Of a stretch of DNA of 64,000 nucleotides, positions 1-39,289 are shown piece by piece. The notes under the pieces were generated by a model. That model did no database searches. It saw only the letters and a program-made list of their open reading frames with translations, and was not told the DNA's origin. Source of the DNA: an uncultured bacterium (GTDB taxonomy: Bacteria; Fidelibacterota; Marinisomatia; Marinisomatales; Marinisomataceae); NCBI GenBank assembly GCA_943841495.1, contig CALSYL010000004.1:1-64000 (forward strand). The letters are read 5' to 3'. Made by a program: the position numbers and the translations under genes. How positions within the stretch are numbered: position 1 is the stretch's first letter; the number at the start of each line of letters is the position of its first letter.

Positions 1-1327
1 TAATGGTTGGTTGGTCATCTTTGTTGGTCTTGTCGACATATCTTCTTTTTGGTCTTAAGTCTTCAAACCTAGTTATCACTTCCGCTTCTACCACACCTAA
101 CTCACTTGATAAACGTTTAATTAGATCGTTTCTAATGATAATATCTTTAACCAATTTAATTTCTTCAATGCACTCATTTAAAAACTTTGATCTATCAGAC
201 GCACCTAATGAAAGAATGCCTTTTTTCATTATAATAAAATTAATCGGGTGCATAGCATTTTTAATAAGGCCTCTAAATGTCTGCTTATTATTTTCTTTTA
301 GTTTGAAATAATCATCTGGATCAAGTCCGTCTCCCAAATCAAGCACTCGTACTTCAAAGCCATTTTGCAATAAGATATAACCTGTTCTAATTGCAGCATT
401 TACTCCGGCGCTGTCTGAATCGTATGTAAGAATAACTCTATTAGTATATTTACCTAATGCATTGGCGTGCTTTGAAGAAAAAGCGGTCCCTGAAGTAGCT
501 AGCACATTTTGAAAACCCTTTTCATACAAACGAAGGAAGTCAGTTTGACCCTCAACTAACAATACATAATTTTGCTTCCTAATTTCAGGCATTGTTTGAT
601 ATGAGCCATAAAAAACTTTACTCTTTTGAAATAATAATGTTTCAGGAGAGTTTAAATATTTAACATCTTCATTGTCCGATAAGCTTCGTCCACTGAATCC
701 AATCACTTTCCCTGATGGGCTGTAAAAAGGAAACATAATTCTATTTCTAAATCTATCTAAAAATCCTTTTTTGCCATTAGAGAATAATCCTGATTTTTCA
801 ATAACCTCATTATCAAATTTTTGACTTAGCTCTTTGTAGAGCATATCCCATGATTCTGAAGCAAATCCAATATTAAACTTCTCAACAATTGCTTTATCAA
901 AAAAACGATCTTCTAAATATTTAATAGCATGTTTACCCGCTGAAGACTTCAGGTTGTTAGAGAAAAACAAATATGCAAGGTTGTGTATTTCATACAACTG
1001 ATCATAAAGATTACTCTGTTGCTCATTTCCGACTTCTATAATCTCAATACTATGCTTTTCAGCTAACGAGCGAATTGCTTCAGAAAAACTAATTTTTTCA
1101 TATTCAATTAAAAATTGAACCGCATTACCTCCTTGACCTGAACCAAAATCATACCACATATTTTTTTCAGGAGCAACGCTAAATGATGGTTTTGTTTCTG
1201 ATCGAAAAGGGCTTAAGCCAAAATAATTTCTACCTCTTTTTTTGAGGTCAACGTATTGAGAAATAACATCAAAAATATCTACTTCTTCTAAAACTCTATT
1301 AATTGTTTCTTGTGCTATTCTTCTCAT
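1..1327 (-). CDS. dnaG: DNA primase DnaG (partial, 3' end outside window)
   Basis: Primase that makes RNA primers at the replication fork. About 442 codons are present, running off the left edge. I translated the reverse strand by hand. The N-terminal CHC2-type region (residues about 35-80) reads like DnaG, but all four expected zinc ligands are changed: S39, R42, D60 and S63 stand where C, H, C and C are expected. The catalytic core follows, with a TOPRIM domain showing VEGQTDFL, then SGTAFSS, YDSDSAG and LDPDDYF, which match the conserved acidic residues. The ATG shares its A with the stop of the upstream CvpA-like gene (TAATG), so translation is probably coupled. Identity as DnaG is secure; the loss of a zinc site is seen directly, its consequence is not. 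Confidence 0.9.
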   Translation of the reverse strand, partial: MRRIAQETINRVLEEVDIFDVISQYVDLKKRGRNYFGLSPFRSETKPSFSVAPEKNMWYDFGSGQGGNAVQFLIEYEKISFSEAIRSLAEKHSIEIIEVGNEQQSNLYDQLYEIHNLAYLFFSNNLKSSAGKHAIKYLEDRFFDKAIVEKFNIGFASESWDMLYKELSQKFDNEVIEKSGLFSNGKKGFLDRFRNRIMFPFYSPSGKVIGFSGRSLSDNEDVKYLNSPETLLFQKSKVFYGSYQTMPEIRKQNYVLLVEGQTDFLRLYEKGFQNVLATSGTAFSSKHANALGKYTNRVILTYDSDSAGVNAAIRTGYILLQNGFEVRVLDLGDGLDPDDYFKLKENNKQTFRGLIKNAMHPINFIIMKKGILSLGASDRSKFLNECIEEIKLVKDIIIRNDLIKRLSSELGVVEAEVITRFEDLRPKRRYVDKTNKDDQPTI

Positions 1328-36475: not shown

Positions 36476-39289
36476 TTATTTTAGAACTTTTTTAAGAAAC
36501 TTTCCTGTAAGCGATTGCGGTTCTTTACAAACTTCTTCTACCGTGCCTTGTGCTATTACTGTTCCGCCACCTTCTCCTCCTTCAGGCCCCAAATCTATTA
36601 TCCAGTCAGCACATTTTATAACATCCAGGTTGTGTTCAATGACTATAACCGTATTTCCTTGGTCTACTAGCTTTTGCAGTACTGATAATAACATTTGAAT
36701 ATCATCAACATGAAGTCCTGTTGTTGGCTCATCTAAAAAATAAACAGTATTTTTAGTACTTGTTTTAGATAGCTCTGTAGACAACTTTATCCTTTGTGCT
36801 TCACCGCCTGATAGGGTTGTTGCTTGTTGGCCGAGTTTAATATAGCCTAAACCCACATCATGCAAGGTATCCAAGCGTTTTTTAATTGGTGGAATGTTTT
36901 GAAAAAATAGTCTTGCTTCATCTACTGACATACTTAAAATATTATCAATATTTTTATTTTTGTATTCTATCTGTAGGGTTTCTTTATTATATCTTTTTCC
37001 ATTACAATCATCACAGTTAACGTAAACGTCTGGAAGGAAATTCATTTCAATTTTAATAATACCCGCGCCTTGACATGTTTCACATCTACCGCCTTTAACA
37101 TTAAAAGAAAACCTTCCAATCTTATATCCTCTTAGTTTTGCTTCTCTGGTTTGCGCAAAAAGATCTCTAATGTGCGTAAAAATTCCTGTGTAGGTTGCAG
37201 GATTTGATCTTGGCGTTTTTCCGATAGGTTTTTGATCAACATTGATAACTCTTTCAATTTTATCTGTTCTTAAAAGATTTTTAAACGGAAGCATTTCCTT
37301 AACACCATAATTCACCATATTTGATAGAGCAGGATATAGCGTTTGGTTTATCAAAGAGCTTTTACCGCTCCCCGATACTCCGGTTATCGCTACCAACCTC
37401 TCATAAGGAAAGCTAACATCTATGTTTTTTAGGTTGTTTCCGCTTGCGCCCAAAATAGTAAAATGATCAAAAGTTGTTGTTCTATAATTTGGAAGCGATA
37501 TGCTTTTTAGGCCTGAAAGGTATTTACCTGTAAGACTTTTTTCGTGCTTCATAATTTCTTTTAATTTTCCAGAGAAAACCACCTCACCTCCTAAAGCTCC
37601 AGCCTTAGGACCCATATCAATAATTTGGTCCGCAGATTCTATTGTATTTAGGTCGTGTTCAACAACTATGACAGTATTGCCAATATCTTTTAATGACTTT
37701 AATGTATCTAGCAGCCTATCATTGTCTCTAGGATGCAGACCAATGGACGGTTCATCTAAAACATAAAGAACTCCGGTTAATTGAGAGCCTACTTGTGATG
37801 CCAGCCTAATTCTTTGCGCCTCTCCTCCAGATAATGTTCTTGAGGCCCGATCTAAGGTTAAATAGTTCAATCCTACATTAATTAAAAAGCTTAATCTTTT
37901 TTTAATTTCCTTGAGTATTCCACCAGCAATGTCTTGTTGATTTTTACTGAGCTCTACTTCTTCAAAAAATTTCAGCGTCTCTGATATGTTATTAGAACAA
38001 AGATTTCCAATGTTTGTTGATCCTATTTTTACATTAAGGGAAGAGTCTTTTAATCTTTTACCATTACAGCTATCACATGTTCGCGTGCTCATAAAGCCTT
38101 CAATCCATCTTCTGATACCATAAGACTGTGTTTGTTTATATCTTCTTTGCAGTTCAGGAATTATTCCTTCCCATTTGCCGGTGTATGTTCCCTTCCATTT
38201 TTTATTTTTAATATCAATATCTATTTTTTTCCCACTCAAACCATATAACAAAATTGTTCTTATCTCTTTTGAAAGCTTGTTCCATGGTTTAGAAAACGAC
38301 AAATCAAAGTCTCTTGCCAAAGCCCTAAGCTTACTTCCGTGGAAACCTTTAGGCTGACTACCTATTGGCTTTATTGCTTCCTGAATTAATGATTTTTTTA
38401 TATTTGGAACAACCAGATTGGGGTCAATTTCTGTAATGAAACCTAGTCCATCACACTGTTGGCAGGCACCGTATGGCGAATTGAATGAAAACATTCTTGG
38501 GGTTAAGTCTGTCATCATAACATAAGGATGGTATGCACATGCAAAATGTTCGCTAAATGAATAGTCTTCATTTTTATTAATATTAATAATGCATATTCCG
38601 TTTCCCATCTTAAGAGCTAGCTCTACCGACTCTAACAATCTAGACTGAACTGATTTTTCTAAAATAACTCTATCAACTAAAACATCAATATTGTGGTTTT
38701 TATTTTTTTCTAGCGCGGGTGTTTTTCTCAATGAAACAATTTTTTTATCAATTCTGGCTCTCAAAAATCCTTTCTTTTTTATGTCTTCAAATATTGTTTT
38801 ATGCTCTCCTTTTCTTCCCTGAATAATAGGAGATAAAATATATGCTTTTTCATTTTTGTGGAGTTTTAAAATCTGTTCTACTATTTGTTCTGGTGACTGT
38901 CTAGAAATCTCCCTTGAACATTCCCAACAATGCGGTTGTCCAATGCTTGCATAGAGAAGCCTAAGATAATCGTGTATTTCAGTTATCGTTCCAACAGTCG
39001 ACCTTGGGTTTCTTGATCCCGTTTTTTGTTCAATAGAAATTGCAGGTGACAATCCCTCTATTGTGTCTACGTCGGGTTTTTCCATTAAGTCTAAAAACTG
39101 TCTAGCATAAGCAGATAGGGACTCCACATATCGTCTTTGTCCTTCTGCATATATCGTATCAAACGCCAAAGAAGATTTTCCTGAACCAGATGGTCCTGTA
39201 ATAACTACAAGCTTATTTTTATCTATATCAACATTAACATCTCGTAAGTTGTGTTGTCTAGCTCCTCGTATTTGTAGTTTATTTTTCAT
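36476..39289 (-). CDS. uvrA: Excinuclease ABC subunit A
   Basis: DNA damage sensor of nucleotide excision repair. It has 937 residues, normal length. It contains two ABC ATPase modules: the first Walker A is GPSGSGKSSLAFDTI and the second GVSGSGKSSLINQTL, each with an LSGGEAQRI signature and a DEPxxGLH Walker B (DEPSIGLHP, DEPTTGLHV). Zinc-finger cysteines include CWECSREIS early on, CDSCNGKRL in the middle, and CETCQGAG / CDDCNGKRY near residues 730-760. It heads a long leftward operon and diverges from yqgE. Confidence 0.97.
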   Translation of the reverse strand: MKNKLQIRGARQHNLRDVNVDIDKNKLVVITGPSGSGKSSLAFDTIYAEGQRRYVESLSAYARQFLDLMEKPDVDTIEGLSPAISIEQKTGSRNPRSTVGTITEIHDYLRLLYASIGQPHCWECSREISRQSPEQIVEQILKLHKNEKAYILSPIIQGRKGEHKTIFEDIKKKGFLRARIDKKIVSLRKTPALEKNKNHNIDVLVDRVILEKSVQSRLLESVELALKMGNGICIININKNEDYSFSEHFACAYHPYVMMTDLTPRMFSFNSPYGACQQCDGLGFITEIDPNLVVPNIKKSLIQEAIKPIGSQPKGFHGSKLRALARDFDLSFSKPWNKLSKEIRTILLYGLSGKKIDIDIKNKKWKGTYTGKWEGIIPELQRRYKQTQSYGIRRWIEGFMSTRTCDSCNGKRLKDSSLNVKIGSTNIGNLCSNNISETLKFFEEVELSKNQQDIAGGILKEIKKRLSFLINVGLNYLTLDRASRTLSGGEAQRIRLASQVGSQLTGVLYVLDEPSIGLHPRDNDRLLDTLKSLKDIGNTVIVVEHDLNTIESADQIIDMGPKAGALGGEVVFSGKLKEIMKHEKSLTGKYLSGLKSISLPNYRTTTFDHFTILGASGNNLKNIDVSFPYERLVAITGVSGSGKSSLINQTLYPALSNMVNYGVKEMLPFKNLLRTDKIERVINVDQKPIGKTPRSNPATYTGIFTHIRDLFAQTREAKLRGYKIGRFSFNVKGGRCETCQGAGIIKIEMNFLPDVYVNCDDCNGKRYNKETLQIEYKNKNIDNILSMSVDEARLFFQNIPPIKKRLDTLHDVGLGYIKLGQQATTLSGGEAQRIKLSTELSKTSTKNTVYFLDEPTTGLHVDDIQMLLSVLQKLVDQGNTVIVIEHNLDVIKCADWIIDLGPEGGEGGGTVIAQGTVEEVCKEPQSLTGKFLKKVLK

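Follow-up and report, generated by a model that had tools for sequence, protein, structure and literature searches.

The primase DnaG of a streamlined ocean genus of Ca. Marinimicrobia appears to be a normal, inherited enzyme whose CHC2 ribbon became metal-free in a single conversion in the genus ancestor and keeps its fold; a polar network would take the place of zinc, the template would still be presented, and a tyrosine at residue 59 would probably shift the start trinucleotide. We assign this reading a probability of roughly 0.78. The assemblies that represent the genus come from single cells and metagenomes and measure about 0.4-1.0 Mb, and the stretch of DNA analysed here (the window, 64,000 nucleotides) is the start of one contig (C4) of a genome of 958,662 bases in 8 contigs. 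In reviews, the three Cys and one His of DnaG are called highly conserved, and the zinc-ribbon motif is called essential for primase function (PMC6163395, PMC5204125).

The window holds the 5' part of dnaG (442 codons, positions 2-1327, reverse strand), the 3' end of which is missing at the contig end. In profile searches, the window protein scored 390.4 bits with the full TIGR01391 dnaG model (cut-off 283.6) and about 100-104 bits with PF01807 (cut-off 24.9), and the DNAG_N and Toprim models of Pfam were also matched. Residues 1-99 (1031-1327, reverse strand) form the metal-less CHC2 or zinc-ribbon domain, and residues 100-425 (53-1030, reverse strand) comprise the linker, the RNA-polymerase (TOPRIM) domain and the start of the helicase-binding region, with matches to PF08275, Toprim families and PF10410. 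The TOPRIM acidic residues (E259, D303, D305, D336 and D338) are invariant in the genus alignment, and the original prediction of an intact TOPRIM core is thereby borne out. The same prediction had read the four zinc ligands as replaced, and the residues seen at the aligned zinc columns are S39 (1211-1213), R42 (1202-1204), D60 (1148-1150) and S63 (1139-1141), all on the reverse strand; its reading of the gene was right on the ligands and not on completeness, since the frame ends at the contig end. The DnaGs of relatives are open full-length frames of 581-615 aa including the C-terminal region. In one relative (L057), the C-terminal part gave weak matches, with PF10410 at 23.7 bits, just over the cut-off, and PF08278 below it. 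A changed recognition of DnaB, which had also been proposed, does not follow from the loss of the zinc ligands, because DnaB binding resides in another, C-terminal domain that is recognisable, if weakly, in the relatives. As a separate observation, the catalytic core of the genus DnaG carries fixed genus-specific changes within residues 212-304 (416-694, reverse strand), namely G212S, A222V, Y233F, Y261Q and G304S, and Y261Q turns EGY into EGQ beside the catalytic E259.

In the alignment with related genomes, S-R-D-S was read directly at the ligand columns in the window genome and in all 21 other gene-bearing genomes of the genus (22/22), in place of the Cys-His-Cys-Cys of PF01807 that the other Marinimicrobia DnaGs read here have; the two genus genomes lacking dnaG are incomplete assemblies (56 and 72%). 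At each column the amino acid is invariant and the codons vary, with AGT or AGC for S39, five different codons for R42, both codons for D60 (GAT in 11 genomes, GAC in 11) and TCA, TCT or TCG for S63. Across residues 1-99 of the genus alignment there is no conserved Cys or His column, so that a classical zinc site is impossible in the genus DnaG. In the phylum survey, PF01807 was matched in 172 of 199 genomes, with about 97-109 bits in the genus and mostly 120-147 bits in other members; ligands across this survey were judged from the bit scores, and the direct reading covered 46 non-genus rows, which are CHCC wherever legible. Further zinc-less Marinimicrobia outside the genus were considered and rejected, since the low scores of the four non-genus genomes inspected come from N bases and no ligand was seen lost in them. 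The fixed differences between the genus and the phylum cluster at the cage (39, 42, 46, 58, 59, 60 and 63), with others at 13 and 74. Among them, W58-Y59 (1151-1156, reverse strand), which precedes ligand column 3, is invariant in the genus; the rest of the phylum has Y or F at 58 and H (73%) or K (17%) at 59.

Judged from its copy number, tree position and neighbours, the window DnaG is the sole chromosomal primase of the genus and is vertically inherited. The window genome gave one PF01807 and one DNAG_N match, as did every gene-bearing genus genome scanned, and the profile searches found no second dnaG in any of them, neither the canonical copy that would have explained the gene away nor another; this sustains the earlier view of a real chromosomal DnaG. 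One DnaB is present in the window genome. In the tree of catalytic columns, the genus clade (100/100) is nested in the phylum clade (100/99). Upstream of dnaG lie, all on the reverse strand, a CvpA-like gene (1327-1839, PF02674), yqeY (1793-2230, PF09424) and, directly upstream of yqeY-cvpA-dnaG, a gene for an N4/N6 DNA methylase of 240 aa (2230-2952, PF01555). The order MTase-yqeY-cvpA-dnaG is common to the genus and the sister family f11, where at locus L010 cvpA and yqeY occupy the same place and the homologous end of the methylase gene lies upstream of yqeY. The catalytic tree and the gene order thus argue for an inherited chromosomal primase and contradict the suggestion that an element-type primase had been captured as a replacement.

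Structure prediction gave a mixed answer on the zinc-less domain. When AlphaFold2 was supplied with genus sequences only, the ribbon (residues 28-62) had pLDDT below 50, the alignment being shallow; using 42 diverse sequences, the ribbon reached 89-94 with the zinc-ribbon strands present, and Foldseek placed the model on the zinc-bound 1D0Q domain with 1.1 Å rmsd over 93 columns. The confident model may lean on the zinc-containing homologues in its alignment, and it is therefore likely, not proven, that the normal ribbon fold is kept without metal. In the mechanism that we propose, the genus ancestor would have acquired C39S, H42R, C60D and C63S, accompanied by changes at 46, 58 and 59. A buried polar network, made of an R42-D60 salt bridge, hydrogen bonds of S39 and S63 and packing of W58, would stand in for the metal and keep the two knuckles of the ribbon in place, and the domain would still hand the template ssDNA to the RNA-polymerase (catalytic) domain. 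Reviews place sequence recognition in the zinc-ribbon domain (PMC6163395), and in the C. difficile primase the change K70H, beside the zinc motif, alters the initiation trinucleotide preference (PMC5204125). Alignment to Aquifex maps this specificity position to residue 59 here. Y59 instead of H or K probably shifts the preferred initiation trinucleotide, and owing to its place at the specificity position, a shifted start-site preference is the most specific prediction of our reading; an altered template preference of the genus DnaG is possible.

Among the other explanations, the one that survives best concerns motive and not an alternative structure. It holds that the scarcity of zinc in surface seawater selected the change, as one case of a general loss of zinc proteins, and we consider it unlikely in that form. 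It would account for a similar loss in SAR11, which is also marine and streamlined, and for the nearest relative's L31, which is of the zinc-less type (L214:14466-14651). However, RpoC retains both of its zinc pairs, CxC and CxxC, LigA keeps zinc cysteines, and UvrA (36476-39289, reverse strand) does so with one C to H, its zinc module being C-x2-H (CAYHP) ... C-x2-C in place of C-x2-C ... C-x2-C; in addition, genome sizes of 3.7 and 4.6 Mb occur among the zinc-less alphaproteobacteria. As RpoC and, largely, LigA and UvrA keep their zinc cysteines, the sequences indicate that zinc is not generally abandoned, and zinc scarcity may still have favoured the change in DnaG. This zinc-protein census is partial, and nothing can be drawn from its RecR_ZnF result, since the B. 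subtilis control fails too. Within the same census, no genuine PriA was found in the 95%-complete window assembly (G000, L223-L225), where TIGR00595 gave at best 49 bits against a cut-off of 230 with weak helicase matches only, and no PriA zinc ribbon was found in the window genome, though DnaB is present.

Zinc-less primases occur well outside the genus. SAR11 DnaGs have S-K-C-T at the ligand columns and one Acholeplasma DnaG has S-V-C-S. In a class sample of Alphaproteobacteria, 35 of 41 are CHCC and 6 of 41 are zinc-less with Cys60 kept, so that a class-wide ligand loss is rejected. On the catalytic tree, the sampled zinc-less alphaproteobacteria alone need four changes, and the branches starred on that tree force five changes from CHCC overall, Acholeplasma uncounted. 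On the tree built from the zinc-binding domain (ZBD) only, the ribbons of zinc-less alphaproteobacteria (L161, L164, L171, L183 and L086) group together (98/87), and their catalytic domains fall in four places; this grouping would reflect either coupled convergence (S62, E65) or an exchange of the N-terminal domain. Among mobile elements, S-x-D-S is found in the primases of Flavobacterium phages and other viral contigs and in a Mycoplasmatota plasmid dnaG; the Prevotella and Persicobacter records are CHCC. The viral contigs L239, L240, L241, L242, L243 and L245 contain S-x-D-S ('IWKDFSSGKGGN') primase-type frames, mostly of about 1,060-1,090 aa where uncut. The earlier idea that zinc-less CHC2 primases belong mainly to mobile elements is thus correct as to their occurrence there and not as to "mainly", since the chromosomes of SAR11 and other alphaproteobacteria have them. 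We found no publication on a zinc-less chromosomal DnaG in the open-access literature. The chromosomal DnaGs of Flavobacteriia are presumably also S-x-D-S ('SPF...IWKDFSSGKGGN'), and if this is true, the Marinimicrobia case is less new.

The phage sequences raise a second explanation, in which the ribbon, and not the catalytic part, was transferred from a Bacteroidota source, phage or host, that was already S-x-D-S with W58 and D60. Bacteroidota phage primases do share S39, W58, D60 and S63 ('IWKDFSSGKGGN') with the genus, and on the short ZBD tree a grouping with the phage ribbons was not formally rejected (p-AU 0.157). With the ligand-side columns removed, however, the genus ZBD shares 56% identity with the zinc ribbons of its own phylum (nearest 63%) versus 42% with those of phages (best 50%), which favours convergence, and we regard such a transfer as improbable.

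The ribbon is under strong purifying selection in the genus. In pairwise comparisons among its genomes, identity averages 92% over residues 30-70, 86% over residues 1-99 and 71% over the catalytic region; dN/dS is about 0.01-0.1 for residues 1-99, and in almost every genus pair the ribbon has a lower dN than the catalytic region. Being the best-conserved part of DnaG, the metal-less domain is, by these sequence comparisons, functional and not decaying, and the original prediction, which had set aside a decayed gene, agrees with this and with the intact catalytic residues. If the domain were instead vestigial, with priming carried out without ZBD-based template recognition, the absence of the metal ligands would be expected, and metazoan TWINKLE, in which the zinc ligands and priming were both lost, would be a precedent; yet the very low dN of the ribbon, its invariant replacement residues and catalytic residues that are intact, unlike those of metazoan TWINKLE, make degeneration very improbable. 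Even less credit can be given to a different ion held jointly by D60 and further acidic or backbone groups: D60 is invariant, but residues 1-99 offer no conserved Cys or His, and R42 beside D60 would be unfavourable for a cation site. There is practically no case for an error of sequencing or assembly, or for a pseudogene accompanied by a true dnaG at another site. Although the window copy ends at the contig end, the same four residues occur in 22 independent assemblies, from single cells and metagenomes, with synonymously varying codons, which is far more than chance or read error would give; the relatives have full-length open frames, and there is no second dnaG core.

Since zinc-ligand losses arose independently in the genus, in SAR11 and in other bacteria, zinc is apparently not indispensable to DnaG. 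A broader proposal is that bacterial replicative primases, including those of SAR11 and of this Marinimicrobia genus, repeatedly escaped zinc through at least two chemically distinct metal-free ribbon designs (S-x-C-S/T and S-R-D-S), and that the Tyr design uses an initiation trinucleotide unseen in any DnaG; we put this forward tentatively, as somewhat less probable than its opposite. Natural, selected metal-free DnaGs allow template recognition to be told apart from the structural role of zinc, and they are ready-made test proteins for the role of the zinc motif, which reviews call unresolved. In addition, a zinc-less DnaG bears on the zinc demand of abundant ocean bacteria.

Compared with the canonical DnaG (TIGR01391; 1D0Q, 2AU3), the genus enzyme agrees in domain order, in catalytic motifs, in predicted fold, in being a single copy and in the phylum gene order, and it differs in the replacement of all four zinc ligands and in the Tyr for H/K before ligand 3. 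The DnaGs of SAR11 and some other alphaproteobacteria (S-K/N/S/Q-C-T/S) and of Acholeplasma (S-V-C-S) are likewise chromosomal DnaG-type genes that have lost ligands 1, 2 and 4 and carry S39 and S/T63; unlike the genus, they keep Cys60, the alphaproteobacterial ones also His59 and a coupled S/A62, and their origins on the catalytic tree are separate, with the alphaproteobacterial DnaGs in clades apart from the genus. The Bacteroidota phage primases (Flavobacterium phages laban6-1 and 1H; IMG/VR contigs) and the Mycoplasmatota plasmid dnaG share S-x-D-S, and the phage ones also W58, but they are element-borne, with frames of about 740 to >1,000 aa, and their likeness to the genus was read in the ZBD; the genus DnaG, with its 581-615 aa and its place in the MTase-yqeY-cvpA-dnaG order, is no such long primase in a phage gene context. 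The zinc-independent ribosomal proteins (C-minus forms of L31, L36 and S14) offer another parallel, as ribbons that still work without Cys ligands; these are mostly conditional, Zur-controlled paralogues, whereas the zinc-less DnaG is the only copy in the genus. Finally, metazoan mitochondrial TWINKLE has a DnaG/T7-type ZBD without zinc ligands and lost priming along with them; Foldseek matches of the genus DnaG model to TWINKLE are weak, and the genus DnaG, unlike TWINKLE, has its catalytic residues intact.
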